Below, piece by piece: positions 1 through 17,883 of a DNA stretch of 17,954 nt. Within the stretch, counting starts at the first letter, position 1. Each line of letters begins with the position of its first letter. The notes below the pieces were generated by a model. That model saw nothing but the letters and a program-made list of their open reading frames with translations. It had not been told where the DNA came from and searched no databases. Origin of the DNA: a bacterium. Lineage in GTDB: Bacteria; Actinomycetota; Acidimicrobiia; Acidimicrobiales; Ilumatobacteraceae. The position numbers and the translations under genes are program-made. Location of the stretch: the NCBI GenBank assembly GCA_029978815.1, contig JAPOIQ010000002.1, positions 1-17,954 on the forward strand, read 5' to 3'.

Positions 1-1435
1 ACTGAATGACTTCTTCACGTCGACCCGATTCGATATCAAGATCAATATCGGGAGGTCCGTCACGATGCGGCGACAAAAACCGCTCGAAGAGCAAACCAAG
101 TGACACCGCATCAGCAGCAGTGATACCTAGGGCATAACAGACCGCAGAATTTGCCGCACTTCCACGCCCCTGACAGTAAATGTCATGTTCGCGACAGAAC
201 TTCACGATGTCCCACACGACGAGGAAGTACCCCGCAAATCCCAGCTGCTCAATGAGTGCAAGTTCGCGATCAATTGTCTGCCAAGCCCGAGACCTCAACG
301 TCATATCTTCTGCTGCTGGAGGCCGTTCTCCGTAGCGCCGCCGTGCGCCTTCATATGTTGCGTGACGGAGCAGCCCCATTTCGTCTAAGCCGTCGGGACA
401 TGGATACGGAGGAAGCGATGGAGCAACAAGTGACACATCAAATGCTGCGGATTGCGCAATCTCGACAGTTCGTTCTACAACGCCCGGATATCGCTGAAAC
501 CGTCGGGCCTGTTCAACACCAGACCTCAAATATGCAGCACCGTGGGCGAAGAGTTGCTCTTCAACACCGTGTAAGCCCGAGCGCCTACCGATAGCCGCTA
601 CCGCCATCGCAAGATCAGCATCAGCAGTTGTCGCATGGGTCACCGCATTTGCAGCGATGCACTCAACTCCTGACCGATGTGCAATGTCAACCATTGCATC
701 GTTGCGGTGATGGTCAAGCGGATCACCGTGATCCCACAACTCGACGAGAACACGATCACGACCAAACAGGTCAATAAGGCGATCGAGTTCGCGACGAGCT
801 GCTCGAGGGCCTTGGGCGCACAACGTTGCGGGGACAACCCCGGTGCCGTCTCCGGTCAACACCCATGACCGCCCTTTCACATGTTCTGCCACGACATTGA
901 GATCGTGACGTGGGGCGCCTTTTGATCCGGCGAGAAGCCCAAGCGAAAGTGCCCGAGAAAGACCGCTGTAACCCGATGGGCCGTCAGCAAGCACAACAAT
1001 GCGGTTCGCGTGCTCGCTACCTCGATCTCTTGACAATGTGAGTTCTGTGCCAATGACCGTCGGAAGATGCAGCGATCGCGCTGCTTCAGCAAAACGGATA
1101 ATTCCGTACAGCCCATCACGATCACACAGAGCGAGAGCATCAAGCCCGAGACGAGTCGCTTCAACAGCGAGTGCTTCAGGATGACTCGCACCCTCTAAAA
1201 ACGAAAAATGAGACCGGGCATGCAACTCGGCATAAGGAATTCGAATACCTCTCGGCGCCGCCTGATCAGCTGGTGCTTCAAAGGGCTGGCGTTGACGGCT
1301 CCAGGCCGGGGCATCACCACCAGCATTCCATGCAGGGCTTCCGGGGGCGCGCCCATCACGACCTCGTTGCGACACTCGACCCGATAAATGGGCTTCAAGT
1401 TCGTTCCATGTCCACTGAGGGTTCGTGAATCCCAC
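1..1435 (-). CDS. dnaE2: Error-prone DNA polymerase III alpha subunit DnaE2 (5' part, truncated by window edge)
   Basis: Only the first 478 codons are present; the gene continues beyond position 1. DnaE2 is the damage-induced, error-prone C-family polymerase that works with ImuB on lesions. The reading frame gives the DnaE2-type N-terminal leader ([12 protein letters not shown]), then the PHP domain opening [19 protein letters not shown] at about residues 68-86. Near the left edge are the DnaE signature [19 protein letters not shown] and PDIDLD, which holds two of the three catalytic aspartates (D463, D465). The third lies outside the window. The start chosen is GTG at 1435-1433, giving [14 protein letters not shown], which resembles other actinobacterial DnaE2 N-termini. 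There is no Shine-Dalgarno, but a -10 hexamer ends 7 nt before the GTG, so the mRNA is probably leaderless. Its own LexA box lies in the promoter. The upstream Nudix gene ends 44 nt away on the same strand, so some readthrough is possible. Identification as DnaE2 rather than DnaE1 rests on the leader motif, the SOS box and imuB nearby. Confidence 0.95.
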
Positions 1436-1440
1436 AACAC

Positions 1441-1468
1441 CAAGTATCGAACATATGTTCGATACTTG
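1441..1468. promoter_or_regulatory. LexA/SOS box of dnaE2 (perfect 28-bp palindrome)
   Basis: The core TCGAACATATGTTCGA (1447-1462) fits the Gram-positive/actinobacterial LexA consensus CGAAC-N4-GTTCG. The dyad symmetry continues without mismatch to the full 28 bp, centred between 1454 and 1455. It fills the spacer between the dnaE2 -35 and -10, so bound LexA should block the promoter directly. Confidence 0.93.
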
Positions 1469-1471
1469 CAA
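1443..1471 (-). promoter_or_regulatory. dnaE2 promoter, predicted leaderless
   Basis: On the minus strand a -35 TTGCAA (1471-1466), a 17-bp spacer and a -10 GATACT (1448-1443) are followed after 7 nt by the GTG start at 1435. The expected transcription start coincides with the start codon. The LexA palindrome occupies the spacer and both hexamers. Confidence 0.7.
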
Positions 1472-1479
1472 GTGGCGTG

Positions 1480-2064
1480 TTAGCCCTCGCTGGAAAACTC
1501 CCGACCAAGACGAGTAAGCAGTGCTGCAAGTCGTTCGTCGCCAGCGCGCTCAACTGCAGCAGACCAATTGAACCATTCAACTCGCTGGCTTTCGTCGGGT
1601 GGAGGGGCCGGATCAGCATCTCCCCAATCGACTAGATACCGGAGGTCGAGGTGGGTGTGGCCGCGCCCCCCTTGATGAACATCGATATGGACAAGCCGAG
1701 GAGGGTGCTGGGTAAACCGCACATCGAGACCTGTTTCTTCACGGGCCTCACGAAGCGCTGCATCCCACGGGGACTCTCCTCGGTCGACGTGCCCTCCAGG
1801 CTGGAGCCACATACCGAGACGCTTATGTTCAAGCAGAACGGTGCCGCGGCTTCCGACCACGATGGCTGAACCAGTGATGTGAACCAGATCATCATCTTCG
1901 CTAAATGGATCAGTTCCAGCGCCACGAAGTCGCTGAACCTCTCTGATAAGTGCTGCAATCGATCGCTCTTCATCGGCATCAGCTGCAACGTGAGCATTCA
2001 CCGCCGCCATCACCTGGTCAATGAGTGCTTCTGGCATCCCACGTACCGTACTGCCATCAGCCAT
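1480..2064 (-). CDS. Nudix (MutT-type) hydrolase in the imuA'-imuB operon
   Basis: This 194-residue Nudix protein would hydrolyse a nucleoside diphosphate linked to another group, for example an oxidised dNTP. The substrate cannot be read from the sequence. The Nudix box is intact at about residues 91-113: G91-x5-E97-x7-R105-E106-x-R108-E109-E110-x-G112. It is preceded by the strand and loop [11 protein letters not shown] typical of MutT-like members. About 60 N-terminal residues, helical and acidic, precede the fold. The start taken is ATG at 2064, which overlaps the imuB stop by 8 nt (ATGGCTGA) and implies translational coupling. An in-frame upstream start at 2121 would lie inside imuB and is less likely. 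It is co-transcribed with imuA' and imuB behind the LexA box at 4361-4378, and its stop codon lies 11 nt from the dnaE2 LexA palindrome. Nucleotide-pool cleaning during translesion synthesis is an inference from position only. Confidence 0.9.
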
Positions 2065-3637
2065 GCGTCCCCATGAGATGCCACCGTTGGTGCTCAACAG
2101 CGAGCAGGTGCGCGCTGCCATCTTCGAGCACTACTTGGAGCCGAGCCAGCCGACGGCGACGACGTTCATCCCACCAGCGGTCAATGAGTGGCCACGGACC
2201 AGCCCATGCCACTACACGACGAGACCGGCCACTGATCACCACAGATACAGGCTCTGAGGTGATTTCGCCTCGACCGCTTACACCGACTGACTCACCACGA
2301 TCATTTAAGACTTCGATTGGGACCTCACGCATTGGAACGATGACCGGGGCCGGCCGGACAACCGATCCGGGCCATGGAGCAAGTGCGTCAACATGATGAT
2401 CACGATCAACAACTGCTGTCGAGACCCACCCGTAACGGTCTTCTGGAAGGCGACCACCAATCGGTAGTGGAACTCGAACACCTTCTGGGCCGCACAGTGT
2501 CACCAATCGAGCAACTGCCCGATTGGCGCGGCCATCGGCTTCGCTTGCGCCACCCCAAAACCCCTCTTGGACACCATCATCAGGTCGCGCCGCGGTGATT
2601 GAAACTCGAAGAACGATCACGCCCGCGCTCACAGCGGATGGTTCGTTGATCCAAGCATCGAGCTGCCAACGAACACGATCGACAATGGCGGCAGCCGTGA
2701 ACCCTTCTGATCGATACCAATGTCGCTCAGTTCTCTCGGAATGTTCCGTTTCAGCGGCCACCGTCATCCGAGTGCACACCAGACCTTCGGTGGCGAGTTC
2801 TTGCACAAGTTCTGAAGCAAGTTCACGAGCGGAAAATACGACCGGGGTAACTGAAAGAATCGGTTCATCAAAACGGCGTTCACGTTCTGGTAGTTGCGAT
2901 GGGGCCACAGATGAAAGTGGGCGTTCGTCTGCGCCAGTTACAACTCGGTATGCCCGTACTCCCGGTAAACCAAAACGAGCGAGCACATCTCGCTCACTAA
3001 GAGCAGCAAGATCGCCAACTGTCCGAATGCCAAGTCGATCAAGTAACTCAACAAGTTCAATCGACATCTCGCCGATGGCGTGAAGCCACCGCAAATTCAT
3101 AGTGGTAAATGCCGCAGCGGTCCTACCTGGTTCAACAATGACAGGTCGAAGGGATATCCCCGAACGACGGGCGGCTATTGCCGATGCAGCACGACCGTCT
3201 GCCACCCCGATGCCGATTGAACTACGTTCCCCCAATTGGCCCTCGACGACAGAACGCACGTGATCAACAACAGAATCTTCTCCGCCGAAGTATCGAACCG
3301 GACCACGCATGTCGAGGCACAGGCTTCCTGGTTCTAACAACTCAACGAGTGGAATGATCTCGGCTACTGATGACACCACTCGCTCAAACGCCTGCACTTC
3401 AGCTGAATAGTCACGTGGAACCACCGTTGCGTTCGGACAGGCGCGCAATGCCACCCGTCGTCGGTCACCTGTACGAACTCCAGCTTCACGGGCGGTGGCA
3501 CAGGCAGCGACCACGCGATGCTGATCGAGCACGATGAGTGGCCCTTCCACTGACGGAACTGCATGTGCCGGCCATTCTGGGCACCACAGTGTGAGTACCC
3601 GTGGCACAGATGAACTCACACTGCTCGAAGCCGCCAT
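2057..3637 (-). CDS. imuB: ImuB, catalytically inactive Y-family polymerase homologue (mutasome hub)
   Basis: ImuB is a Y-family-like scaffold that links the beta clamp, ImuA' and DnaE2 in SOS mutagenesis. The protein has 526 residues, normal for the family. The N-terminal LTLWCPEWPAHA stands where active Y-family polymerases carry the metal-binding Asp, so the palm is non-catalytic, as expected for ImuB. A helix-hairpin-helix region is at about 195-225 (LLDRLGIRTVGDLAAL). A candidate clamp-binding motif QEGFWGG lies at 357-363, where mycobacterial ImuB has QLPLWG. The C-terminus has the typical AWAGPWPLIDRWWDERRRRR segment (478-495). The ATG at 3637 is preceded by GAGGAA at good spacing and overlaps the imuA' end by 22 nt. 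The gene ends in an 8-nt overlap with the Nudix start. Confidence 0.95.
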   Translation of the reverse strand: MAASSSVSSSVPRVLTLWCPEWPAHAVPSVEGPLIVLDQHRVVAACATAREAGVRTGDRRRVALRACPNATVVPRDYSAEVQAFERVVSSVAEIIPLVELLEPGSLCLDMRGPVRYFGGEDSVVDHVRSVVEGQLGERSSIGIGVADGRAASAIAARRSGISLRPVIVEPGRTAAAFTTMNLRWLHAIGEMSIELVELLDRLGIRTVGDLAALSERDVLARFGLPGVRAYRVVTGADERPLSSVAPSQLPERERRFDEPILSVTPVVFSARELASELVQELATEGLVCTRMTVAAETEHSERTERHWYRSEGFTAAAIVDRVRWQLDAWINEPSAVSAGVIVLRVSITAARPDDGVQEGFWGGASEADGRANRAVARLVTLCGPEGVRVPLPIGGRLPEDRYGWVSTAVVDRDHHVDALAPWPGSVVRPAPVIVPMREVPIEVLNDRGESVGVSGRGEITSEPVSVVISGRSRRVVAWAGPWPLIDRWWDERRRRRLARLQVVLEDGSAHLLAVEHQRWHLMGTHG

Positions 3638-4347
3638 CGAAGTTCCTCACTCTCAGCAACGACGTCGGTTAGCTCGTCGTTGATGTGATCGGTTTCATCA
3701 TCTTGAAACCACCTCATGTCAGTGCCGTTTTCAGGGGGTAACTGCATCTGTGATCGGAGTGGCCGTGGAGAACGGCGGCCCGTTGCTGAAACAGTGAGAT
3801 GCCGAGCGAGAAGACGCCCTGTTCCCCAGCCAATACCTTCCCAACGAATGTCGGAGCCGACGAGTTCGATGTCACCAAGAGATGCGGTGTCGTTTGCCCG
3901 TATTTCGTTGCTGTCGTCAATCACGACAAGAGTGACGCCCTTTGCTCGGATGCGTTGTGCAATTCGACGTGCGAGCGCCCCGCGATAACGACAAGCAGGG
4001 ATGATGACGACGTCGAATCCGTCGAAGACAGCCGACAACACATTTGCGGGGTCATCACCGGTTGATATGCCGACAACTCGATGTAGTGGAATATCAAATT
4101 CGACAAGTGCTTCCGGTGAAATCTGTTCAAGATCAACCATCGCAAGCCACGACCCCACCGCAATTGCTCTTGAGATCAACCCGAGAGCGATTGAATATGC
4201 AGCTGGCCCTTGGCAGGCGACCACTTGCCCACGCAATAGCCCGGTGGGCAGTACCTCTGCATATGCCTCTGATAACGGTAATGAGCTGTCAGTTTTCGTC
4301 AGCGATGCAGCAGACCGAAGATGTGAAGATTCAAGAGCAATAGACAT
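3616..4347 (-). CDS. imuA': ImuA' (RecA-fold mutasome accessory protein)
   Basis: This 243-residue protein is the first gene of the SOS operon. It has the ImuA' layout: a short variable N-terminus, then LPTGLLRGQVVACQGPAAYS (33-52) in the position of the RecA Walker A loop but lacking the GK(T/S) residues, and GSWLAMVDL at the next strand. It should not bind ATP in the RecA manner. In mycobacteria ImuA' interacts with ImuB and is required for DnaE2-dependent mutagenesis; that role is assigned here from homology and gene order. The ATG at 4347 lies 10 nt downstream of a GATACA -10 that abuts the LexA box, so the mRNA would have almost no leader. The 3' end overlaps imuB. Sequence conservation in this family is low, so the call depends partly on context. 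Confidence 0.88.
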   Translation of the reverse strand: MSIALESSHLRSAASLTKTDSSLPLSEAYAEVLPTGLLRGQVVACQGPAAYSIALGLISRAIAVGSWLAMVDLEQISPEALVEFDIPLHRVVGISTGDDPANVLSAVFDGFDVVIIPACRYRGALARRIAQRIRAKGVTLVVIDDSNEIRANDTASLGDIELVGSDIRWEGIGWGTGRLLARHLTVSATGRRSPRPLRSQMQLPPENGTDMRWFQDDETDHINDELTDVVAESEELRWRLRAV

Positions 4348-4360
4348 CGAGAACCACTGT

Positions 4361-4378
4361 ATCGAACAGGTGTTCGAT
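4361..4378. promoter_or_regulatory. LexA/SOS box of the imuA'-imuB-Nudix operon
   Basis: ATCGAACAGGTGTTCGAT contains CGAAC-N4-GTTCG. It is palindromic except for the central GG, and is the same operator type as at 1441-1468. For imuA' it lies directly upstream of the -10 GATACA (plus positions 4358-4363, partly overlapping). On the opposite strand it overlaps a possible TATTCT -10 at 4379-4384 directed at the divergent S51-like gene. Confidence 0.9.
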
Positions 4379-4464
4379 TATTCTTTGCCGGCGATTTGCT
4401 GATTATGCGATGGTCTTTTGAGGTCGGCTTCCCTGAACCTGTGCCATCCGGGCAGACTAGGAAG

Positions 4465-5769
4465 GTGAGTACCAGCCGCCCAACCCCGCCTCGAATCCTC
4501 ACCTTGATGGGGTCAGGCGAAACCGCTCCAACGATGGTAAGTACTCATCGGCGACTCGCAGCCTCCCTCGCTAACGGCCCCGCAACCGTTCGTTCAATGG
4601 TGAATGCCGCCCTGCTCGATACTCCATACGGGTTTCAAGAAAATGCTTCTGAGCTCGCTGAGCGAGCCGTCAATTATTTCTCCGAATCTGTTGACGTCAA
4701 TCTTCGAGTTGGCGGTTTGACCTCGCTAAGCACAGCGGACCCAGTGGTCCGAGAGCGCGGACTCGAACTGCTGCGCACAAGCGACTACCTTTTCGCCGGC
4801 CCAGGATCACCGACCTACGCGCTCCGCGAATGGGCGCAGACCGATGTGCCTTCGATCATTTCCGACAAGCTTGACCACGGTGGAATCGTTGTCTTCGCCT
4901 CAGCGGCCGCACTCACTATTGGCGCACGAACGGTTCCGGTCTACGAGATTTATAAATGCGGCCATGACCCTTACTGGCTCGAAGGTCTCAACCTGCTTGG
5001 CCACATCGGCATCAATGCTGCAGTCATCCCTCATTACGACAATGCTGAGGGCGGACACCACGACACGCGGTTCTGCTACCTCGGTGAACGCCGCCTGCGA
5101 CTCATGGAACAGGAATTACCAACCGACCATTACGTCTTGGGGGTCGATGAGCACACCGGCGTCGTCTTGAATCTTGACGCGGGCTCCGCTGAAGTCGTTG
5201 GAAACGGCATGCTGACGGTCCGTATTGATGGGGAGTCACGAACCTTCAATGCCGGGACCACACTTGATCTTGCATTCCTCATCAACCCTGAGAGCGATGC
5301 AACACCGTCGGCCGCTGGACGTACCGTCCCTGCAACGGCAGCACAGACAGTAACTGCAGGTGAGCCGGCAGACACCTCGCTCGGAGCCACGACTGATCGC
5401 TGTCTCAGCGACTTCAACGAAGCCATCACAAACGGTGATGCCGATCAGGCGTTAAGAGCGGTGCTCGCACTCGAAGAAGCAATCACCGCATGGTCAGCTG
5501 ACACGCTGCAAAGCGACGATGCAGATCGAGCACGCTCAACACTGCGATCAATGATCACACGCCTCGGTGATGCTGCGGTAAGAGGTCTTGACGATCCGAC
5601 TCTTGTTCGAGCTCCTCTCGTTGAAGCCCTGCTCGAAATCAGGGCGCTCGCGAGGAGTGAGAAGCGGTTCGATCTTTCAGATCTCATCCGAGATCGCCTC
5701 GACGCCGCGGAAATCGACGTCAAAGACACCGCTGACGGTGCCGAGTGGAGTTTGCGGAGCGAACGCTAA
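4465..5769 (+). CDS. Peptidase S51/GATase1-like protein fused to a cysteinyl-tRNA synthetase-type C-terminal domain
   Basis: The N-terminal half, starting at PRILTLMGSGETAPTMV, resembles the peptidase S51 family (cyanophycinase, dipeptidase E; class I glutamine amidotransferase fold). It has AGPGSPTYALREW and a nucleophile-elbow candidate FASAAALTIG with Ser146, although the usual GxSAGA is altered to ASAAA. Histidines occur in IPHYDNAEGGHHD. After a Ala/Thr-rich linker, about residues 310-434 are alpha-helical and end in LARSEKRFDLSDLIRDRL...DVKDTADGAEWSL, which closely matches the extreme C-terminus of cysteinyl-tRNA synthetases. No catalytic synthetase domain (HIGH/KMSKS) is present. Substrate is unknown. 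The GTG at 4465 is used because the family motif begins 9 residues later; TTG 4396, ATG 4405 and GTG 4441 are in-frame alternatives. The gene is divergent from imuA' and convergent with the B12 regulator. Confidence 0.8.
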   Translation: MSTSRPTPPRILTLMGSGETAPTMVSTHRRLAASLANGPATVRSMVNAALLDTPYGFQENASELAERAVNYFSESVDVNLRVGGLTSLSTADPVVRERGLELLRTSDYLFAGPGSPTYALREWAQTDVPSIISDKLDHGGIVVFASAAALTIGARTVPVYEIYKCGHDPYWLEGLNLLGHIGINAAVIPHYDNAEGGHHDTRFCYLGERRLRLMEQELPTDHYVLGVDEHTGVVLNLDAGSAEVVGNGMLTVRIDGESRTFNAGTTLDLAFLINPESDATPSAAGRTVPATAAQTVTAGEPADTSLGATTDRCLSDFNEAITNGDADQALRAVLALEEAITAWSADTLQSDDADRARSTLRSMITRLGDAAVRGLDDPTLVRAPLVEALLEIRALARSEKRFDLSDLIRDRLDAAEIDVKDTADGAEWSLRSER

Positions 5770-5775
5770 CGCTGG

Positions 5776-6621
5776 TTATGCCGTGCGCCGGCGAGTGGCG
5801 TGTTCGCGCACCATGTCGAGTACTTGAGAGATGTCGCGTCCCGCAATGAGTCGTTCATCAAGGTCCGCATCTGCGGCTGCGGTGACCGCCCTACCTCCGG
5901 TAATCACCAGCGTTTGCGGATGCGCCGATCGAACCTCCGCCGTGACTTCGACGGCAGCTGGAAACGAATCCTCATGCGAAACCGACAGCAAGACTGATAC
6001 TGCGTCGGTCTCTTCGACGACCTGAGTAAACGAACTTGCAGGACAGTCAGAACCTAGGTCGATCACGGACCAACCCTCTGCTCGAACTAGGTCTGCAACC
6101 ACCGCACTCGGAATTGAATGATGTTCACCAAATGGTGAACCGACGACCACAGTTCCGCGTGAACGCCCACGCCGATTGAGTTGCGGACCGAGGCGCCCGA
6201 GCAAACGCTGCACCACAACGGTTGCGCGATGTTCATCTGCAACCGCAAGTTCTCCCGCTGCCCAACGCGCGCCGATCGACTCCATCGCGTCGGTGATGTA
6301 TTCGGTATAGATGCGGTCAACTGATGATCCTGCTGCCATTGCCGATTCGATTACGCCCCAGGCGCCTTCAACATCACCCGCAATGAGACGAGCCTCAAGA
6401 CGCGATGCCCATGGGGCATGGCGGCGAGCCCGACCTTTTTGTGTTTCTCCCGCAGTTGGAGCACTCGGGCGAGAAAACTGTTTGAGATCGTCGAGGGCCA
6501 CACGCCAACCGGCGGAAGTTCTCGTGGCATTCAATTGACCTTGGCGAACGTACCGATACGCAGTCATGTAGTGCACGCCAAGGCGCTCTGCAGCCTCATG
6601 CAACGTGACATCGTTCCCCAC
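5776..6621 (-). CDS. B12-binding, CarH/LitR-like transcription regulator with excisionase-type HTH
   Basis: This 281-residue protein begins with a MerR/excisionase-type winged HTH (about residues 5-48, LHEAAERLGVHYMTAYRYVR). A helical domain and a Rossmann-type cobalamin-binding domain follow. The helical part contains W120-x9-E130-H131 (WAAGELAVADEH), the Wx9EH signature that caps the adenosyl group in CarH photoreceptors. The B12 domain has GEHHSIP, which keeps the lower-ligand His (H168) of ExHxxG but has Pro171 in place of the final Gly. ITGG (240-243) occurs near the end. A light- or adenosylcobalamin-responsive repressor is therefore plausible, but the target genes are not evident here. 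The start is GTG at 6621, with TAACGT ending 8 nt upstream and no Shine-Dalgarno. The stop lies 6 nt from the convergent S51-like gene. Confidence 0.87.
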   Translation of the reverse strand: MGNDVTLHEAAERLGVHYMTAYRYVRQGQLNATRTSAGWRVALDDLKQFSRPSAPTAGETQKGRARRHAPWASRLEARLIAGDVEGAWGVIESAMAAGSSVDRIYTEYITDAMESIGARWAAGELAVADEHRATVVVQRLLGRLGPQLNRRGRSRGTVVVGSPFGEHHSIPSAVVADLVRAEGWSVIDLGSDCPASSFTQVVEETDAVSVLLSVSHEDSFPAAVEVTAEVRSAHPQTLVITGGRAVTAAADADLDERLIAGRDISQVLDMVREHATRRRTA

Positions 6622-6629
6622 GGGTTCTG

Positions 6630-6635
6630 ACGTTA
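6630..6635 (-). promoter_or_regulatory. -10 element of the B12 regulator gene
   Basis: TAACGT on the minus strand lies 8 nt before the GTG start at 6621, so the transcript would be leaderless. A perfect 10-bp palindrome (6636-6645) abuts it upstream. No convincing -35 is seen. Confidence 0.45.
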
Positions 6636-6679
6636 GAAATATTTCAAAGCCGCTGCGTGACTGTGCACAGCTTTAGATG

Positions 6680-7132
6680 TCAGCCGTTTTTGGCCGCCCA
6701 GCGCTCTTTCGCAGCCTTGCTTCTTTCAAGAAGATGAGCGGGCACACGCTGCGCTGCTGCGGAGAGTTGTTCCCCTCCGTCGGCACTCGCGGTTGATGCC
6801 GCCGCCTCTTCAGGCTGGAGGTCTTCGAACGACGGTGGTTCCACACCGGGAAGCCAGTACTGGTAGAGATTTGAGACGATGTCAGTCAATCCTTCACCGG
6901 TGCTTCCACGGGAAAGTTCAACGGTGACAATGTTGGAGAACACGTGCACGGAATCGACTCCACCGTGGGCGATCAGCCGACGAGCAAGCACTGCACTTGG
7001 GCGATCACCGCGAGCTTCTTCGACCGTGCTGAACCGCTCATGGCCCTGACCTGACAGGGTTCGGTTGAGTTCAAACCTCAACGTACCCGGCTGATTCGAT
7101 GCCTTCTCTACGACGCCAACAAGTTGTCCCAT
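6680..7132 (-). CDS. Stand-alone Nfu/NifU N-terminal-domain protein (Nfu_N)
   Basis: The 150-residue product carries the Nfu_N-type domain over about residues 15-95: TLRFELNRTLSGQGHERF, RPSAVLARRL, GGVDSVHVFSNIVTVEL. In full-length Nfu iron-sulfur carrier proteins this domain precedes a C-terminal NifU domain with a CxxC cluster site. Here that domain and the CxxC are absent. Instead there is an acidic Ala/Glu-rich tail ending in a basic RSKAAKERWAAKNG. A role as an Fe-S assembly partner is possible but unproven, because it cannot itself carry a cluster by the CxxC mechanism. ATG 7132 is preferred over GTG 7141: a TAGTTT -10 ends 9 nt before the ATG and touches the GTG. The B12 regulator gene starts 58 nt beyond the stop and has its own promoter. 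Confidence 0.85.
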   Translation of the reverse strand: MGQLVGVVEKASNQPGTLRFELNRTLSGQGHERFSTVEEARGDRPSAVLARRLIAHGGVDSVHVFSNIVTVELSRGSTGEGLTDIVSNLYQYWLPGVEPPSFEDLQPEEAAASTASADGGEQLSAAAQRVPAHLLERSKAAKERWAAKNG

Positions 7133-7141
7133 ACAGTTCAC

Positions 7142-7147
7142 AAACTA
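7142..7147 (-). promoter_or_regulatory. -10 element of the Nfu_N gene
   Basis: TAGTTT on the minus strand is 9 nt upstream of ATG 7132 and immediately adjacent to the alternative GTG 7141. It therefore decides the start in favour of 7132. No Shine-Dalgarno is present. Confidence 0.4.
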
Positions 7148-7233
7148 TCGCAGTCTGGCCCCTACAGCCTTGCCCGTTGAGGAAACCTGGGAGCGGTTGA
7201 CGAGAAGGCACCCCACCAGCGGTCGATCGGGGG

Positions 7234-7239
7234 TAACGT
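7234..7239 (+). promoter_or_regulatory. -10 element of the potassium-channel operon
   Basis: TAACGT ends 6 nt before the GTG at 7246 and is the same hexamer seen at the B12 regulator. The GGGGG run at 7229-7233 is too far from the GTG for a normal Shine-Dalgarno, so a leaderless start is favoured. Confidence 0.45.
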
Positions 7240-7245
7240 TTCTCT

Positions 7246-8652
7246 GTGCCCAAATGGCGACTTCTACGCGCCACCGAGAACCCTGCTCGGCTCGTGCTCA
7301 CCGCATTCGCGTCACTCATTGTGATTGGCACCATTCTTCTTCGTATTCCTGGTGCATTCGATGGCCCTCAACCTTCTTTACTCGATTCGCTCTTCACCTC
7401 GACGTCGGCCACCACGGTGACGGGGCTCGCCACACTCGATATTTCAGGTTTCAGTGCGCTGGGTGAAGTCATCATCTTGGTACTCATTCAGATTGGCGGG
7501 TTCGGCATTATGGCCCTCGGTGCAATCCTCAGCGTGGTTGCATCACACCGAATGGGTCTCAGCCAGCGCAAGCTTGCTGCCGCCGAATTTGGGACCCTCG
7601 ACAACGGAGTCCTCGCCGAGGTTGACCTGCGTGGCATTCTTCGACGGGTTGCTGAGATCACGATCTTGGTCGAGGTTGTACTCGGGATCATGCTCTTTCT
7701 CCGTCTGTGGACCGGTGGGTATGAGAACTTCACGCGATCGCTCTACTCAGGTCTCTTCCATTCAATTTCTGCGTTTAACAATGCCGGTATTTCGCTCTAC
7801 TCAGATTCGCTCGAACGTTTCCAGGGCGACCCGTATTTGCTCATTCCGATGTCTGCAGCCTTCATTCTTGGAGGGTTTGGTTTTCCCATCATCATTGAGG
7901 TGCTCCGTCAGGTTCGCGGCACAGGTCCAGTTGGCCAGCGCTCTCACCGGAGAGGACTCGCGCGAATCGATCCCAAGCGTTGGAGTCTGCACGCAAAGAT
8001 CACAGTTACGTCGACGCTCGCTCTCGTCGTCATCGGTACAGTGATCTTTGCGGTACTTGAGTGGGCGAATCCATTGACGCTCGGACCACTCAACATCGGC
8101 GAGAAATTCCTCGCCTCCTGGTTCCAAGGCACAACACCTCGAACTGCTGGCTTTAACACCATTGATATCGGTGGCCTTCAAGAACCGACCCTGCTCTTTG
8201 TCACGACCCTGATGTTCATTGGAGCTGGGCCGGCATCAACGAGTGGCGGTATCAAGGTCACCACATTTGCTGTTCTCGCATTCGTTATTTGGGCTGAGGT
8301 GCGTGGGCGCCACGACGTCAACGCCTTTGGACGACGTCTTAGCCGCGGGGTTGTCCGCCAAGCGATCACCATTGCTTTGCTCTCGGTCGGGCTCGTCGTT
8401 GCGACCGCACTTGTTCTCGTCGGAACAATGGATGTCACGCTCACCCCAGCTCTCTTCGAAGCGACATCAGCATTCGGCACCGTCGGGTTGTCGACTGGCC
8501 TCACCGGTGAACTCAACGGTATTTCGAGAGCCCTTCTCGTCATTGTCATGCTCGCTGGTCGAATTGGCCCGATGACGTTCGTCACCGCTATCGCACTCAA
8601 AAATCGAGACCTGCCCTATCGTTATCCCGAGGAGAGACCGATCATTGGCTGA
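7246..8652 (+). CDS. ktrB: KtrB/TrkH-family potassium transporter, membrane subunit
   Basis: The 468-residue polytopic membrane protein has the four-repeat M1-P-M2 architecture of the SKT superfamily. The selectivity filter segments are visible in order: TTVTG (56-60), NNAG (178-181), RTAGFN (299-304) and GTVGLST (411-417). The gating loop GPASTSGGIK (328-337) lies in the third repeat. Length and an N-terminus that enters the first membrane helix after about 14 residues fit KtrB rather than the longer TrkH, though that split is not absolute. It takes up K+ (KtrB types are usually Na+-dependent) with the cytosolic RCK subunit encoded next, which overlaps by 8 nt. The start is GTG 7246. Confidence 0.93.
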   Translation: MPKWRLLRATENPARLVLTAFASLIVIGTILLRIPGAFDGPQPSLLDSLFTSTSATTVTGLATLDISGFSALGEVIILVLIQIGGFGIMALGAILSVVASHRMGLSQRKLAAAEFGTLDNGVLAEVDLRGILRRVAEITILVEVVLGIMLFLRLWTGGYENFTRSLYSGLFHSISAFNNAGISLYSDSLERFQGDPYLLIPMSAAFILGGFGFPIIIEVLRQVRGTGPVGQRSHRRGLARIDPKRWSLHAKITVTSTLALVVIGTVIFAVLEWANPLTLGPLNIGEKFLASWFQGTTPRTAGFNTIDIGGLQEPTLLFVTTLMFIGAGPASTSGGIKVTTFAVLAFVIWAEVRGRHDVNAFGRRLSRGVVRQAITIALLSVGLVVATALVLVGTMDVTLTPALFEATSAFGTVGLSTGLTGELNGISRALLVIVMLAGRIGPMTFVTAIALKNRDLPYRYPEERPIIG

Positions 8653-9397
8653 GAGAATTACACGCAACGTGCAGAACATGCTTGACGGCATGCGCGGCAA
8701 TCGCTTCGAGCACTCGGGCGAAGTCGTCGTTATTGGGCTGGGCCGATTTGGCAGCGCCCTTGCCAACGAACTCATGCGTCTTGGGCACCCCGTGCTCGGC
8801 ATCGACCAAGACGCAAGTCGAGTCGACGAACACAAGGGCCAACTCACCGAAGTTGCCGAGGCTGACACCACGAGTGAGCGCGCGCTTCGGGCGCTTGGTG
8901 TACACGAGGCGCTCACTGTTGCCGTGTGTATCGGTAGCGGCATTGAGGCAAGCGTGCTGACGACCGCACTACTTGTTGAACTTGAAGTGAAGAACATTTG
9001 GGCTAAAGCGATCACTTCCGATCACGGCCGGATCCTGTCGAAAGTTGGAGCACATCACGTGGTGTATCCGGAAGCGGAGATGGGAGAACGCGTCGCCCAC
9101 CTCGTCACCGGCAAGCTTGAAGAATTCGTCAGACTGAATGCGGCGGACGAAGTTGGCACCCCGATCGATCCTGATAATGAGTTTGTGCTGAGTCAAATGA
9201 TGGTGCCAGCCCATGTCGCCGGTAAAACATTGGGAGAGGCCGGAATACGCAGTGACTTCAAAGTCACGGTCGTCTGCATCCAGCCAGATGGTGAAAAGTT
9301 CACCTACGCCGAAGCCGACACCATTCTCGGGTCTGAGGACCACATCGTTGTCGTCGGCCACCCCGATGACGTCGAGCGCTTTGCCGGATCGGACTGA
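8645..9397 (+). CDS. ktrA: KtrA/TrkA-family RCK regulatory subunit
   Basis: The 250-residue cytosolic protein has an RCK_N Rossmann domain beginning VVVIGLGRFGSALANEL (G31-x-G33-x2-G36). An Asp (D54) closes the second strand, as in NAD(H)/ATP-binding KtrA proteins. An RCK_C domain follows (about 165-250, FVLSQMMVPAHVAGKTLGEAG to DHIVVVGHPDDVERF). One RCK unit is the KtrA pattern; TrkA of enterobacteria has two. It should form the octameric ring gating KtrB in response to nucleotides. The TTG at 8645 overlaps the ktrB stop (TTGGCTGA) and has GAGGAG 10 nt upstream. It adds about 25 residues before the first strand; ATG 8678 or 8690 are alternatives. Confidence 0.92.
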   Translation: MAERITRNVQNMLDGMRGNRFEHSGEVVVIGLGRFGSALANELMRLGHPVLGIDQDASRVDEHKGQLTEVAEADTTSERALRALGVHEALTVAVCIGSGIEASVLTTALLVELEVKNIWAKAITSDHGRILSKVGAHHVVYPEAEMGERVAHLVTGKLEEFVRLNAADEVGTPIDPDNEFVLSQMMVPAHVAGKTLGEAGIRSDFKVTVVCIQPDGEKFTYAEADTILGSEDHIVVVGHPDDVERFAGSD

Positions 9398-9434
9398 TCA
9401 GTCACATGGTTGGGCGCTCCGCCTGCCGTGGAAC

Positions 9435-9440
9435 TACCTT
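9435..9440 (+). promoter_or_regulatory. -10 element of the SRPBCC gene
   Basis: TACCTT ends 7 nt before ATG 9448. This supports that start over the in-frame ATG at 9406, which would add a basic stretch outside the conserved fold. Confidence 0.4.
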
Positions 9441-9447
9441 CTCATCG

Positions 9448-9900
9448 ATGTCAACCGTCAATCGATGCGTATCTGAATCAATCCACGTTGCTGCATCGCC
9501 AGCTGACGTGTTCGCAACCATTAGCGACCCCTCCCAACACAACAGATTTGATGGTTCTGGGATGGTGCAATCAAGTCGTGGCGGGAGTTCCTCGGTGGGG
9601 CTGGGTTCAAAGTTTGGGATGAACATGAAACTTGGACCGATCCCCTATCGAATGAATAACACCATCGTTGAGTTTGAACAAGACCGTCTCATCGCATGGG
9701 CGCACGTTGGTGGTCACCGCTGGCGCTACGAACTCCAACCAGATGCAGACGGAACCCTTGTCACCGAGTCATTCGACTGGTCGACTGCGAAAGTTCCGAA
9801 ATTCATTGAGGTCATGAACTACCCAGTTCGGAATCGCAAAGCGATTATCAACACCCTGCAGCGTCTTCGCGACCTTTTCGGTGCGCAGTCCGATGTCTGA
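9448..9900 (+). CDS. SRPBCC/START-like fold protein (polyketide cyclase/dehydrase-type)
   Basis: This 150-residue protein has the SRPBCC pattern. The first strand ends in SIHVAASPADVFATISDPSQHNRF, then hydrophobic strands with a glycine-rich turn (VGLGSKFGMNMK), RLIAWAHVGGHRWRYEL, and a long C-terminal helix (VPKFIEVMNYPVRNRKAIINTLQRL). Such proteins bind hydrophobic ligands or act as small cyclases or lipid-binding proteins, and no specific ligand can be named. ATG 9448 is chosen because the fold starts just after it and because of the -10 hexamer. The last 8 nt (ATGTCTGA) are shared with the glutaredoxin start, so the two are coupled. Confidence 0.82.
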   Translation: MSTVNRCVSESIHVAASPADVFATISDPSQHNRFDGSGMVQSSRGGSSSVGLGSKFGMNMKLGPIPYRMNNTIVEFEQDRLIAWAHVGGHRWRYELQPDADGTLVTESFDWSTAKVPKFIEVMNYPVRNRKAIINTLQRLRDLFGAQSDV

Positions 9901-10165
9901 TGTAATCCATTTCTATTGGCGGCCGGGCTGCCCGTTCTGCTCAATGTTGCGAAAGGGTCTTGACAAACGCGGCATTGCAACAGTTGACCATGACATCTGG
10001 TCAGATGCTGATGCTGCTGCCGTTGTTCGGCACTTTGCGAACGGCAACGAGACAGTTCCTACGGTGGTCATTGGTGAAACCGGATTTGTGAATCCGTCGG
10101 CAAAAGCAATCGAGGAGTACCTTTCGAGTCACGCCCCTCACCTTTTGCCGACGACACAAGGTTGA
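9893..10165 (+). CDS. Glutaredoxin-like protein (mycoredoxin type, CPFC)
   Basis: The 90-residue thioredoxin-fold protein has the active site C13-P-F-C16 near the N-terminus (FYWRPGCPFC). It also has the cis-proline motif TVPTVVIG and a C-terminal helix after GFVNPSAKAIEEYL. This is the layout of actinobacterial mycoredoxin-1 (NrdH/Grx-like, WRPxCPxC), which reduces mycothiol mixed disulfides. Mycothiol dependence is inferred from the family. The start is ATG 9893 within the overlap with the SRPBCC gene; GTG 9881 is possible but not needed. Confidence 0.9.
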   Translation: MSDVIHFYWRPGCPFCSMLRKGLDKRGIATVDHDIWSDADAAAVVRHFANGNETVPTVVIGETGFVNPSAKAIEEYLSSHAPHLLPTTQG

Positions 10166-10173
10166 CAGCCCAA

Positions 10174-10193
10174 CCGTCTCTTATTTGAGAGGG
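10174..10193. terminator. Possible weak hairpin between convergent glutaredoxin and zur genes
   Basis: A 7-bp stem with one G-G mismatch (ccgtctc/gagaggg) and a TTATTT loop fills the 31-nt gap between two convergent stops. There is no clear U-run, so this is only a candidate bidirectional terminator. Confidence 0.25.
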
Positions 10194-10196
10194 TAG

Positions 10197-10640
10197 CTAC
10201 GTGCAGTTGCAACAACGGCCTCGGATATCGAGGTCGTGTCCGTCGAGCACGAATCCTTGAGACTGAGCAACGACATCGAGGGAACGGTCGAGAAGGTGTT
10301 CGACCTCGGTAGGTAACTCCACATCAACGACGACACCACACTCAGTGCACACAAGATGGTGATGGTGGTGCCCCGTAAGTTGCTCATCAAGTTCATAACG
10401 GGCGTGATCACTGTCGTGAACAATTCGACGAACTGCTCCTGCCTCGATGAGAACCCCGAGCCCCCGGTAGGCGGAACTTTGAGCGAGTTCATCCCTGCGA
10501 TCTAAGAGTTCGGTAAGAGTGAGCGGTCCATCGCCTGCAAGAACGTCAACCATGGTTTTCAGGTTCGCAGTGTACACGTTGCCCTCTCGCAGAAGGAGAT
10601 TGCGAACTGCGTCGTGGAGCCCTTCACGAGTGCCATTCAT
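10197..10640 (-). CDS. zur: Zinc uptake regulator (Fur family, Zur/FurB)
   Basis: The 147-residue Fur-family repressor has an N-terminal winged helix (about 1-80; LTLTELLDRRDELAQSSAYRGL is the recognition region). The C-terminal dimerisation and metal domain follows. C98-x2-C101 and C143-x2-C146 form the structural Zn(Cys)4 site. H91-H95 are in the region that carries the sensory-site His residues. Assignment to zinc rather than iron or peroxide comes from its position directly after znuC and from the Zur-type box upstream of the operon. Its ATG at 10640 overlaps the znuC stop by 4 nt (ATGA). It should repress its own operon and znuAB when zinc is sufficient. Confidence 0.92.
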   Translation of the reverse strand: MNGTREGLHDAVRNLLLREGNVYTANLKTMVDVLAGDGPLTLTELLDRRDELAQSSAYRGLGVLIEAGAVRRIVHDSDHARYELDEQLTGHHHHHLVCTECGVVVDVELPTEVEHLLDRSLDVVAQSQGFVLDGHDLDIRGRCCNCT

Positions 10641-11524
10641 GACGATGCTGCTCCATCGTTTTCGCGGGCCTCAGCGTGGTGGTGATCATGCCCATGATGG
10701 TGATGATGCACCTCAAGGTGTGCCGACAGGTCGGCGGCGATGCCCTGCGGATCGACATCGTGGTGGTGATGTTCATCGACGACGACAGCGTCACCGGCGA
10801 CCATTCGTCCACCGAACGCCTCTGCGAGAAGTTCGGGTACGAGCACATCACCTGGCATGCCGTCGGCGAGCACACAGCCGGCGAGCAGCAGGACGCGATC
10901 AGCTCGACGAGCCTCGCCCAGATGGTGCGTTGTATACAGAGTCGCTCCCCCTCGAGCTGCGTGACTTTCGATGACGTCGAGAATGACTTGCTGGCTTGGC
11001 AGATCGAGACCCGTGATCGGCTCATCGAGCAGGAGCACATCGGCCTGCGTCGCAACCGCTTTTGCCACAAGTACACGTTGTCGTTGCCCACCTGATAGCG
11101 CTCCAAAAGAACGCTTTAGCAAATCAGTGACGTCGAGGAGTTCTGCTGCCTCCTCGATGGCCGACCGGTCTTCGCGACGAACACGGCCTAACAATGAGCG
11201 ATAGCGCCCCATACGAAGCACCTCATCGACCGAGAGTGGCATCCACTGGTGTTGGTGTTGATGTTGGCCAACAAATGCAACTGAGCCGTTGACCGTCACT
11301 TCACCATCGGTTGGCTTCTCTAGCCCGGCAATGAGTTTCAAGAGGGTGCTTTTTCCGCTGCCATTGGCACCGATGACCGCAACCGCCTTGAAGTGATCGA
11401 TGATGAGATCGGTTGGAGCCAGCGCGACTCGTGACCCGAAGTGCATGCATGTTTCGCGTAATTGAACAAGAGGTGCGGTAGGAGAAATTCCACCAATCAC
11501 TCGGGAAGTCGCCGATGTGGTCAT
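10637..11524 (-). CDS. znuC: Zinc ABC transporter ATP-binding protein with His-rich tail
   Basis: This 295-residue ABC ATPase of the metal (ZnuC/MntB) group has Walker A GANGSGKST (52-60), Q-loop Q87, signature LSGGQRQ (143-149), Walker B VLLLDEP (163-169) and H-loop H200. Unusual features are the alternating His/Gln run right after the Q-loop (QHQHQHQ, 87-93) and a C-terminal extension of about 45 residues. That extension has 13 histidines in clusters (252-255, 273-277, 279, 281-283). The tail could buffer or sense cytosolic zinc; that is inference. It forms a two-gene operon with zur and diverges from znuA. The ATG at 11524 has no Shine-Dalgarno, and a TAGCAT -10 ends 9 nt upstream. Confidence 0.92.
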   Translation of the reverse strand: MTTSATSRVIGGISPTAPLVQLRETCMHFGSRVALAPTDLIIDHFKAVAVIGANGSGKSTLLKLIAGLEKPTDGEVTVNGSVAFVGQHQHQHQWMPLSVDEVLRMGRYRSLLGRVRREDRSAIEEAAELLDVTDLLKRSFGALSGGQRQRVLVAKAVATQADVLLLDEPITGLDLPSQQVILDVIESHAARGGATLYTTHHLGEARRADRVLLLAGCVLADGMPGDVLVPELLAEAFGGRMVAGDAVVVDEHHHHDVDPQGIAADLSAHLEVHHHHHGHDHHHAEARENDGAASS

Positions 11525-11533
11525 AGCAACATC

Positions 11534-11543
11534 ATGCTATCGT
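11534..11543. promoter_or_regulatory. Overlapping divergent -10 elements of znuC-zur and znuA-znuB
   Basis: On the plus strand TATCGT (11538-11543) ends 7 nt before ATG 11551 of znuA. On the minus strand TAGCAT (11539-11534) ends 9 nt before ATG 11524 of znuC. The two face away from each other and overlap by 2 bp, so both transcripts would be leaderless or nearly so. Confidence 0.45.
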
Positions 11544-11545
11544 AT

Positions 11546-11560
11546 TGAGAATGATTCTCA
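11546..11560. promoter_or_regulatory. Zur/Fur-type operator (perfect 7-1-7 inverted repeat)
   Basis: TGAGAATGATTCTCA is a perfect inverted repeat with a 1-bp centre and fits Fur-superfamily boxes, close to actinobacterial Zur sites (TGAAAATGATTTTCA type). It covers the predicted +1 and start codon of znuA (ATG 11551) and lies just upstream of the znuC -10. One Zur site can therefore control both directions. Confidence 0.85.
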
Positions 11561-12564
11561 TTCCTAATCGGAGACGGGTGTCGTATGCAGCCATTGCAAT
11601 TGGAATGACGTCGCTCCTCGCCGCTGGCTGTTCTGACACGACAGGCCCCACGAATGGGAGTCAACCCCCTTCGATCCTCGCCACGGCGAGTATTTGGGGA
11701 AATGTCACCTCGGCAGGGCTATGCGGCGAAGCCGTTCCCTCTCTCATTCCAATCGGCAGCGATCCGCACACGTGGGAGCCCTCAATGGCAACTCGCGCTG
11801 ATGTCAACGCGTCTGCTGCGATCATTGCGAATGGCCTCGGACTTGAGTCAGGTCTCGACGGCATCCTCGATACAGCCCAGGTAGATGGGGTTCGAGTTGT
11901 TGAATTAACCAGTGCTGTCGAACTGCTTCCCACACTCGCTGAACATGATGGTCACGAAGAAGGCGACGACGAAGAAGACGAACACGAGTACACCAATGAC
12001 GAACATGCACACTCTGAGTCTGGGCTCGATCCGCACATCTGGCTCGACCCCCAACGAGTCATCGACTCCATTCCAACAATCATCGAAGTCGCTGTTGAAT
12101 CAGGATTTGATCGCAATGAAATTGAGTCATGTGCCGAGGCGTATACCGACTCCCTCCACGAACTCGATCGTGAGATCGAAGCTCTGTTCGCATCGCTCAC
12201 CAACAGCGAGCGAATCATTGTCACGAACCACGATTCCCTCGGGTATTTCGCAGATCGCTACGACCTCACCGTGATCGGAACGGTGCTACCTGGTGCCGAC
12301 ACCAGCAGCGAGGCAAACGCCGCTGACCTCGCAGCCCTTGCCGAACTCATTACCGACACCGGAGTGACCACGATTTTTAGCGATGCTGAAAGTAACGATG
12401 CTGATTCTCGAGCGCTCGCCGACAGACTCAACATTAAGGTCATTCCCCTACTCACTGCGTCGTTGACATCGGGCGTAGAGAGCGGACGCTCATACATCGA
12501 TCTCATGCGAACGAATGCGACCACCATCCACACGGCACTGCAGAGCGTCACACAGTCGCCATGA
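11551..12564 (+). CDS. znuA: Zinc ABC transporter substrate-binding lipoprotein
   Basis: This 337-residue cluster A-I metal-binding protein starts with a basic N-terminus, a hydrophobic stretch and a lipobox ending LLAAGC (Cys27), so it is a membrane-anchored lipoprotein. Metal ligand candidates are His73 (GSDPHTWEPS), His162 (GLDPHIWLDP), His227 (VTNHDSLGYF) and Asp278 (IFSDAES). Between the first two is a His/Asp/Glu-rich loop (132-154, HDGHEEGDDEEDEHEYTNDE), characteristic of ZnuA zinc proteins and rare in manganese ones. ATG 11551 is used because a -10 ends 7 nt before it; the TTG at 11545 would lie between -10 and +1. It overlaps znuB by 4 nt. Confidence 0.92.
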   Translation: MILIPNRRRVSYAAIAIGMTSLLAAGCSDTTGPTNGSQPPSILATASIWGNVTSAGLCGEAVPSLIPIGSDPHTWEPSMATRADVNASAAIIANGLGLESGLDGILDTAQVDGVRVVELTSAVELLPTLAEHDGHEEGDDEEDEHEYTNDEHAHSESGLDPHIWLDPQRVIDSIPTIIEVAVESGFDRNEIESCAEAYTDSLHELDREIEALFASLTNSERIIVTNHDSLGYFADRYDLTVIGTVLPGADTSSEANAADLAALAELITDTGVTTIFSDAESNDADSRALADRLNIKVIPLLTASLTSGVESGRSYIDLMRTNATTIHTALQSVTQSP

Positions 12565-13421
12565 CCTGGTTCACAAGCCCATATGACTGGTGGATTAGCC
12601 CTCTCGCTGAACACGCCTTTATGCGAGATGCCGTACTCGCCGCAAGCCTTGTTGTGATCTGCTCCGCAACCGTCGGCACGTGGGTAGTCCTCCGAGGACT
12701 CTCATTTCTTGGTGATGCCCTCGCCCACGGCGTGTTACCGGGAATTGCAATTGCCTGGATCATCGGAGCGAATACCTCGCTCGGAGCGCTCATCGCCGCT
12801 CTCGCAATGGTCGGCGGAGTCAACCTTGTGAAGTCATCCTCCCCGTTACCCGATGATGCCTCAATCGGAATTCTCTTCGTCGGCTTTCTCTCTCTTGCTG
12901 TCGTCATCATGTCGGCCTCGGGAGGTTCAGGCGATCTCAACCGGTTCCTATTTGGATCGATCACATCGGTGAATCAGAGCGACATCACTTCACTTGCCAT
13001 CGTCGCCGCAGTCACTGTGATCGCAATTGCCTCGCTACATCGCGCGCTGCTCCTCGGCACCTTTGACATCGACCAGGCAACACTTGCTGGATTTCGCCCC
13101 CGACTCGTCCACCTCGCGCTCCTTACCCTCATCGCAGTGGTTGTCGTTGCATCGTTTGAGACCGTTGGGAGTCTCTTGGTCTTCGCATTTCTCATCGCTC
13201 CACCTGCAACCGCCTCACTGTTTGCTCGTCGGGTGAGCAGCATCATGTTCTTTGCAATCATCATCGGTATTGCGAGTTCGTACATCGGCCTCACCATCAG
13301 CTACCACCAGCGCAGCGCCGCCTCAGCAACGATGGCACTCACCAACATCATCATGTTTTTTGTTGGAATTACGGTTCGTTCTGTGATCCTCAAACAGCGG
13401 TCTCGAGCGGTCCACCCCTGA
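12561..13421 (+). CDS. znuB: Zinc ABC transporter permease
   Basis: The 286-residue ABC-3 family permease has about eight hydrophobic segments. The family motif VLRGLSFLGDALAHGVLPGIA (about 43-63) contains the conserved SFLGDAxAH that contacts the ATPase. GTFDIDQATLAGFRP and the run SFETVGSLLVFAFLIAPPATA are also typical. ATG 12561 overlaps the znuA stop (ATGA), so the two are translationally coupled. With ZnuC encoded divergently they complete the zinc importer. The gene is convergent with rnhB. Confidence 0.92.
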   Translation: MTWFTSPYDWWISPLAEHAFMRDAVLAASLVVICSATVGTWVVLRGLSFLGDALAHGVLPGIAIAWIIGANTSLGALIAALAMVGGVNLVKSSSPLPDDASIGILFVGFLSLAVVIMSASGGSGDLNRFLFGSITSVNQSDITSLAIVAAVTVIAIASLHRALLLGTFDIDQATLAGFRPRLVHLALLTLIAVVVVASFETVGSLLVFAFLIAPPATASLFARRVSSIMFFAIIIGIASSYIGLTISYHQRSAASATMALTNIIMFFVGITVRSVILKQRSRAVHP

Positions 13422-13446
13422 CCTCGCTCGGCCCGCCTCTCTTGAA

Positions 13447-15155: not shown

Positions 15156-15164
15156 GGCGTGATC

Positions 15165-16412: not shown

Positions 16413-16419
16413 ATCGCCT

Positions 16420-16425
16420 TACGCT
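16420..16425 (+). promoter_or_regulatory. -10 element of cofC
   Basis: TACGCT ends 6 nt before ATG 16432, consistent with a leaderless transcript. The GTGGAG between them is too close to the ATG to act as a standard Shine-Dalgarno. Confidence 0.4.
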
Positions 16426-16431
16426 GTGGAG

Positions 16432-17819: not shown

Positions 17820-17828
17820 CGGACGCGA

Positions 17829-17857
17829 AACTGGCGGGGCCAATGACCCCGCCAGTT
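17829..17857. terminator. Hairpin terminator between convergent genes
   Basis: A perfect 11-bp GC-rich stem, AACTGGCGGGG with CCCCGCCAGTT, around a 7-nt loop (CCAATGA) lies between the PIG-L stop and the stop of the minus-strand histone-like gene. There is no long U-run on either side, so it may be a bidirectional stem-type terminator, as is common in actinobacteria. Confidence 0.75.
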
Positions 17858-17883
17858 CGACATTCATAATGAGTTGAAAGAAG

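Follow-up and report, generated by a model that had tools for sequence, protein, structure and literature searches.

Does a Nudix hydrolase belong to the actinobacterial mutasome, or has it merely come to lie beside it? The question is raised by a stretch of 17,954 nucleotides (nt) from a member of the Ilumatobacteraceae (GenBank assembly GCA_029978815.1, contig JAPOIQ010000002.1, positions 1 to 17,954; the window below), whose minus strand carries, in order, a LexA-type box, imuA', imuB, a Nudix hydrolase gene, a second LexA-type box and dnaE2. The original prediction, made from this DNA alone, held that the hydrolase is the third cistron of an SOS-controlled operon and could remove damaged deoxynucleoside triphosphates (dNTPs) before the error-prone polymerase can use them. 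We observe the arrangement, the boxes and the overlap in the lineages in which the Nudix gene and imuB are contiguous. Comparison across the family and phylum makes it likely that a general Nudix enzyme became lodged at the mutasome locus and repeatedly became a cistron of the SOS operon where an inverted regulator gene is absent. A mutasome link through the nucleotide pool is plausible, but it is not needed to explain the arrangement.

Gene order at the imuA'-imuB locus

The locus is like the actinobacterial ImuA'-ImuB-DnaE2 mutasome in its proteins, with an ImuA' that scores over its model's cut-off, a catalytically degenerate Y-family ImuB with a clamp-like motif, and DnaE2, and in its LexA-type boxes before imuA' and before dnaE2. 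It is unlike that system in that a Nudix gene follows imuB and dnaE2 lies directly behind the Nudix gene (Table 1). The mycobacterial mutasome is split into imuA'-imuB and dnaE2, and the accessible text of PMC12926913 describes an ImuA2-ImuB2-DnaE2A variant; the accessible parts of PMC6511836, PMC12926913 and PMC12702967 describe no Nudix member. The imuA'-imuB-Nudix-dnaE2 order was likewise not found reported in the accessible portions of the open-licence literature on imuB/dnaE2 mutasomes and Nudix hydrolases.

The imuA' and imuB genes overlap by 22 nt, and imuB and the Nudix gene overlap by 8 nt (ATGGCTGA). The Nudix gene had been said to start inside the imuB stop codon; the two genes do overlap at this junction, but the ATG within the stop codon is out of frame, and the in-frame Nudix ATG (2064-2062) begins 5 nt before the imuB TGA (2059-2057). 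At its other end the gene stops beside the dnaE2 box, as predicted. The catalytic carboxylates of ImuB are gone, since the Pol IV segment SIDEAYLDV aligns with EPGSLCLDM in the window, the DE pair being replaced by G-S. A Q-x-G-[LF]-W-G motif occurs in 10 of the 11 ImuB relatives scanned (L174 had no match), and the window version, QEGFWG at residues 357-362, resembles in sequence what we take to be the clamp-binding motif. The dnaE2 gene likely starts at a GTG at 1435, a start picked by eye; its partial N-terminal product scores 425.7 bits with the NF004225 error-prone DNA polymerase model, and it misses the whole-protein cut-off of 939 because the window ends inside the gene.

Table 1. Features of the mutasome locus, with positions in the window.
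Feature	Position	Strand	Details
imuA'	3616..4347	-	243 aa; NF058630 (DnaE2-dependent mutagenesis accessory factor ImuA') 78.8 bits, cut-off 65
imuB	2057..3637	-	526 aa; PF00817 60 bits; Y-family homologue without catalytic pair
Nudix hydrolase, third cistron	1480..2064	-	194 aa; PF00293 63.2 bits, cut-off 21.1
dnaE2, 5' part only	2..1435	-	NF004225 best match; PHP and DNA_pol3_alpha domains; runs past window base 1
LexA-type box before imuA'	4362..4377		TCGAACAGGTGTTCGA, exact palindrome
LexA-type box between Nudix stop and dnaE2	1447..1462		TCGAACATATGTTCGA, exact palindrome

Distribution of the arrangement in the Ilumatobacteraceae

The ImuB and Nudix proteins were searched against 247 genomes of the class at E<=1e-15, 19 of them from the window's family. 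ImuB is present in all 19 and Nudix in 17, and in every one of these 17 imuB is followed within about 1.5 kb by the Nudix gene on its own strand. The Nudix gene directly adjoins imuB in nine of the 19 genomes, among them that of the window and G008, whose contig stops within Nudix; we call this state contiguous. In eight others, which we call regulator-type, an inverted gene separates imuB from Nudix; OmpR-type regulator domains were found in the one such gene scanned, and the others match that one. Co-transcription of imuB and Nudix is unlikely in these eight genomes because of the inverted gene between them. The nine contiguous genomes are small (1.7-2.5 Mb) and the eight regulator-type genomes are larger (2.8-5.0 Mb), a pattern that gene loss in small genomes would give.

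A wider set of loci (L numbers; G numbers denote genomes) was obtained by searching genome contigs with a 14-protein alignment of the family Nudix, which gave 457 relatives. Among the best 80, a set biased to the family, 32 are contiguous with imuB, and in 30 the regulator intervenes, leaving Nudix 1.6-6.5 kb from imuB in six of these. The remainder comprises 4 loci with the regulator gene and no imuB on the available stretch, 10 without imuB where more than 3 kb of upstream sequence is available, 3 without imuB where less is available, and 1 with imuB on the opposite strand. The 8-nt overlap of the window is also seen in L171, L173, L174, L226, L080 and possibly L077, and the Nudix ATG overlaps the imuB stop by 1 nt in L165-L167, L169, L170 and L184. 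The isolate genome of Ilumatobacter nonamiensis YM16-303 (L188) is contiguous. An arrangement peculiar to one strain is ruled out by this recurrence, in nine of the 19 family genomes and in 32 of the best 80 loci, and to that extent the order recurs as the original prediction required of it.

The inverted OmpR-type response-regulator gene is itself a stable neighbour of imuB in the family (L067-L072, L078, L079, L081). In a further genome, G039 (L073/L242), a frame change or stop interrupts each of imuB and dnaE2, through sequencing error or decay.

LexA-type boxes and SOS control

The window holds three LexA-type matches with at most two mismatches where 0.12 are expected, and 0 of 200 shuffled sequences reached three. 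Two of the three are exact and the third, at position 10288, has two mismatches. The whole draft genome (1.83 Mb, 69.5% complete) contains three exact TCGAACN4GTTCGA sites, two of them at this locus, and none of a backward control pattern; a LexA gene was also found in the draft. A chance origin of the boxes is ruled out by the shuffles together with the whole-draft count. The sites recur among 37 deduplicated contiguous relatives, the window excluded (duplicates L065, L066, L069, L070, L072 and L073 were left out of these counts, of the Nudix-box counts and of the ImuB tree). Of the 32 relatives in which imuA' was seen, 31 have GAACN4GTTC close to its projected start, and of the 33 with more than 150 nt of sequence past the Nudix stop, 30 have it within the first 150 nt. 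No terminator-like site was found between imuB and Nudix in the window; terminator-like matches number three in total (shuffled mean 2.6), and the two on the minus strand lie inside imuB.

Divergent from imuA' is an open reading frame (4396-5769, +) that begins some 18 nt away from the LexA-type box of imuA' and whose place is conserved in the window's clade. Its product has only a weak cysS-like match, at the C-terminus. By its position, the imuA' box might control this frame as well.

Selection on the Nudix enzyme and its likely substrate

Is the third cistron a working enzyme? The Nudix box (GX5EX7REUXEEXGU) is intact in the window protein, as had been claimed, with A at the U position after RE, and a slightly loosened regular expression finds it intact in all 72 deduplicated family loci (37 contiguous and 35 regulator-type). 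The protein also has the flanking motifs of its subfamily, HVTGSAIVV and WLQPGGH among them, shares 44-59% identity with most of the phylum relatives listed, and is one of six Nudix-family matches in the draft genome. Ratios of nonsynonymous to synonymous substitution rates (dN/dS) against five relatives are 0.07-0.13 for Nudix, and elsewhere at the locus they are 0.10-0.21 for imuA' (four pairs) and 0.06-0.18 for imuB (five pairs). Only the nearest pair, the window and L165, is dependable, because the synonymous rate (dS) exceeds 1 in every other pair; it gives 0.128 for Nudix, 0.132 for imuA', 0.059 for imuB and 0.040 for dnaE2. These ratios and the intact box indicate that the enzyme is kept working by selection.

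What the enzyme cleaves is less readily told from its family. The original prediction had labelled it MutT-type, a label that the family models do not support: the MutT equivalogs score 26 of the 148 bits required (NF008044) and 19.9 of 97.9 bits (TIGR00586), the mycobacterial MutT1 model NF052459 scores 18.8 of 475 bits, and no NCBIfam equivalog at all exceeds its cut-off. Thus the window protein has the Nudix box in common with MutT and 8-oxo-dGTP diphosphatases while its equivalog scores fall far below their cut-offs, and a MutT assignment is unsupported. Many of the 120 relatives listed are named '8-oxo-dGTP pyrophosphatase MutT (NUDIX family)' by one source, but such a name does not amount to a test. 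The best matches in the structure database (1jrk, 3fcm and 3f6a) are known by the Nudix family name alone, and those with a named activity are lower and weak (Ndx1, an 8-oxo-dGTPase domain, Ap4A hydrolase, CoA pyrophosphatase and NudJ). Neither the equivalog models nor the structure-database matches gave a signal for damaged dNTPs as substrate. Its substrate is most likely a nucleoside-diphosphate-linked compound, and cleaning of damaged dNTPs is possible but unsupported.

The enzyme could also act in the opposite sense and shift the nucleotide pools so as to raise mutation, as NudJ does in E. coli, where the accessible text of PMC12359138 reports that deletion of nudJ can lower the mutation rate six-fold. 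NudJ is indeed among the structure-database matches (3dku, E 0.00066), but that match is weak and limited to the Nudix core, and we regard a pro-mutagenic role as very improbable. In M. smegmatis biofilms, the accessible part of PMC12702967 gives lowered values for mutT2-mutT4 (0.26-0.56) while dnaE2, imuA' and imuB are up.

The same Nudix subfamily occurs elsewhere in other surroundings, unlike the window gene. In 13 loci (12 genomes of another family, f4, and G244) it sits beside zinc-ribbon and histidine-phosphatase genes, joined in 10 of the 13 by a pyridoxamine-oxidase-like gene. In G193 (L082 6626-7957, -) it is fused to a HAD phosphatase, beside gcpE and away from imuB. Within the family, the regulator-type loci of G019 and G051 (L078 10061-11068; L079 10955-11953) encode a Nudix fused to a GNAT acetyltransferase domain, identified by a domain search on the G019 protein (L078) and by alignment for L079. 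These neighbours and fusions (phosphatases, GNAT and pyridoxamine oxidase) do not point to dNTPs. Across the phylum, 35 of the genomes from outside the class, among 396 phylum genomes, carry the subfamily at E<=1e-20; six of the 35 match ImuB at E<=1e-15, four of them well (E 1e-63 or better). Among the places listed in those six genomes, imuB and Nudix are nowhere near each other, the sole pair on one contig being 28 kb apart. Because the subfamily is found away from imuB in all these settings (beside zinc-ribbon and histidine-phosphatase genes, in the HAD fusion and in the phylum genomes), they support the view that the Nudix protein is a general enzyme.

Conserved gene order and the regulator gene

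How often has contiguity arisen? On a tree of 83 ImuB rows, from which rows of fewer than 380 residues were dropped, the contiguous and regulator-type states need five changes, at least four of them forced by starred branches; the tree comes from a quick search, has long branches and support from the Shimodaira-Hasegawa-like approximate likelihood-ratio test (SH-aLRT) only, and shows changes of state and not their direction. Loss of the regulator appears likelier than gain because two further families of the order have regulator-like genes (30-43% identity) at six of their imuB loci (L108, L120, L124, L125, L131 and L132) and because G071 has the regulator gene behind imuB with Nudix absent. 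A tree of the Nudix proteins alone (74 rows with 10 starred branches; no usable row came from 3 of the 76 listed loci) needs four changes between family rows and other rows, only one of them forced by starred branches. A single origin of the family Nudix may be compatible with this tree, which is too weak to date the acquisition.

The neighbours upstream of imuA' provide a control for the linkage. The window gene at 6680-7141 (-) encodes 153 aa that match Nfu_N below the cut-off, and 18 of 19 family loci have it on the upstream side of imuA'. Its homologue is near imuA'-imuB in 28 of 42 loci from the rest of the class (in L111 on the opposite strand; some matches are weak, at 34-46% identity), and near imuB in 0 of 32 loci from elsewhere in the phylum. 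This gene is therefore a more widely conserved neighbour of the mutasome than Nudix is. Between it and the imuA' side lies a gene for a helix-turn-helix and B12-binding protein (5776-6621, -), with homologues in 10 of 19 family loci; its architecture is CarH-like.

Conserved local order could by itself account for the place of the Nudix gene. Loss of the intervening regulator would then have put an unrelated housekeeping gene behind imuB, and its SOS expression would be incidental. The 6680-7141 gene, which has no known role in mutagenesis and is nonetheless retained across so many loci, argues for such slow rearrangement. Furthermore, imuB and Nudix lie on one strand in both states, so that loss of the regulator gives contiguity automatically, and the contiguous genomes are the small ones. 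The overlap of Nudix start and imuB stop at some loci, by 8 or 1 nt, and the repeated contiguity go somewhat beyond bare accident, however, and the Nudix gene has been displaced in 0 of the 17 family genomes that carry it. On balance we lean slightly towards this explanation, giving it a little better than an even chance.

Is the Nudix hydrolase an added arm of the mutasome?

Another explanation is that Nudix clears damaged or unwanted dNTPs during synthesis by DnaE2, and that selection keeps it in the damage operon for this reason. Its linkage to imuB in all 17 sampled family genomes that have both genes, the repeated arrival at contiguity on the ImuB tree and the catalytic box intact at all 72 family loci would fit such a role. 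So would one distant locus, on a 4.8-kb contig of the Actinomycetota genome MGR_bin170 (L243, 1-4843), which has a box, imuA', imuB, a Nudix gene of the same subfamily, a box and dnaE2, and whose ImuB falls outside the family on the ImuB tree. There the Nudix gene follows imuB and adjoins the LexA-type box of dnaE2, but it is inverted. A further candidate, a Nudix gene beside dnaE2 on a 3.1-kb contig (L220), was set aside as a suspected misassembly because on this contig the pair would have to overlap head to head.

A number of results, besides the limits of the ImuB tree, weigh against a mutasome link or against the reading that we prefer. The first concerns distribution. Of 158 genomes from the rest of the class that match ImuB at E<=1e-15, 42 were examined, and none of their 42 loci, mostly about 13 kb each, has a Nudix box near imuB. 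In the phylum outside the class, 34 genomes match ImuB; no Nudix box lies near imuB in the 32 loci scanned (L291 and L296 carry little weight, as both end shortly after imuB), and no Nudix of the subfamily was found in the other two (L249 and L251). The original prediction counted recurrence in distant genomes as support, and apart from the inverted near-case of L243 the imuB-Nudix order did not recur there; a spread of the linkage across the Actinomycetota is rejected on the sampled genomes. Even in the family, Nudix is missing at E<=1e-15 from G071 and G122, both of which have imuB. Moreover, L181, titled as a metagenome-assembled genome (MAG) of Ilumatobacter coccineus, has Nudix and no imuB in 8 kb upstream, and in L192, where both the regulator and Nudix are present, about 5 kb of upstream sequence contains no imuB. 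Most of the genomes surveyed are fragmented MAGs. In addition, the gene order around imuA'-imuB is slow to change, and the linkage in 17 of 17 genomes is therefore not, taken alone, evidence of shared function.

The second group of results concerns expression. A good many of the contiguous loci have their nearest Nudix start codon 30-60 nt or more past imuB, and in the window imuB contains a promoter-like site (9/12) at 2422-2393 on the coding strand, some 330 nt ahead of Nudix, the single such match in a region where shuffled sequences average 1.3. Because of these gaps and this match, Nudix may have an internal promoter. Upstream of Nudix in the regulator-type loci, GAACN4GTTC was not found within 400 nt in 33 of 35 cases, L071 and L237 being the exceptions. 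With the inverted regulator in about half of the family loci and no LexA-type site in those 33, SOS control is not a constant feature of the imuB-Nudix association. The claim of an SOS-controlled third cistron therefore holds for the arrangement behind the LexA-boxed imuA'-imuB and does not extend to the family as a whole.

An added arm is thus set against the lack of Nudix boxes at imuB loci outside the family, the roughly half of family loci without signs of SOS coupling, the two family genomes without Nudix, the inverted orientation in L243, and the lack of a substrate signal in the models and structure matches. Together these results make it an unlikely explanation.

Probable capture of a Nudix gene by the SOS operon

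The reading that we prefer, a general enzyme lodged at the mutasome locus, can be put as a sequence of events. An ancestor of the Ilumatobacteraceae would have acquired, between imuB and dnaE2, a general-purpose Nudix of a widespread actinobacterial subfamily. In many descendants the inverted OmpR-type regulator separates this gene from imuB, and it is presumably expressed on its own. In several lineages, the window's genus among them, the regulator is absent and Nudix abuts or overlaps imuB. The absence of the regulator should place Nudix on the imuA'-imuB mRNA, through shared transcription and coupling that the gene layout predicts, and hence its level should be raised after DNA damage. The Nudix gene of these lineages would then be a real and selectively maintained cistron of a LexA-boxed imuA'-imuB-Nudix unit, directly before a separately boxed dnaE2.

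The enzyme may serve mutagenesis, or it may be a mere passenger. In the latter case, the Ilumatobacteraceae would offer a clean natural series in which an unrelated gene is captured by an SOS promoter when an intervening gene is absent. It is doubtful, in our estimate, that the mutasome of the family is instead a module of four genes, with a damage-induced Nudix adjusting the nucleotide supply of DnaE2. If it is, the repeated independent joining to the imuA'-imuB unit and the case of L243 would reflect selection for co-expression and not chance. The contiguous arrangement in the isolate I. nonamiensis YM16-303 makes the coupling testable. A functional coupling would mean that these bacteria direct induced mutagenesis through the nucleotides supplied to the polymerase as well as through the polymerase that is made.

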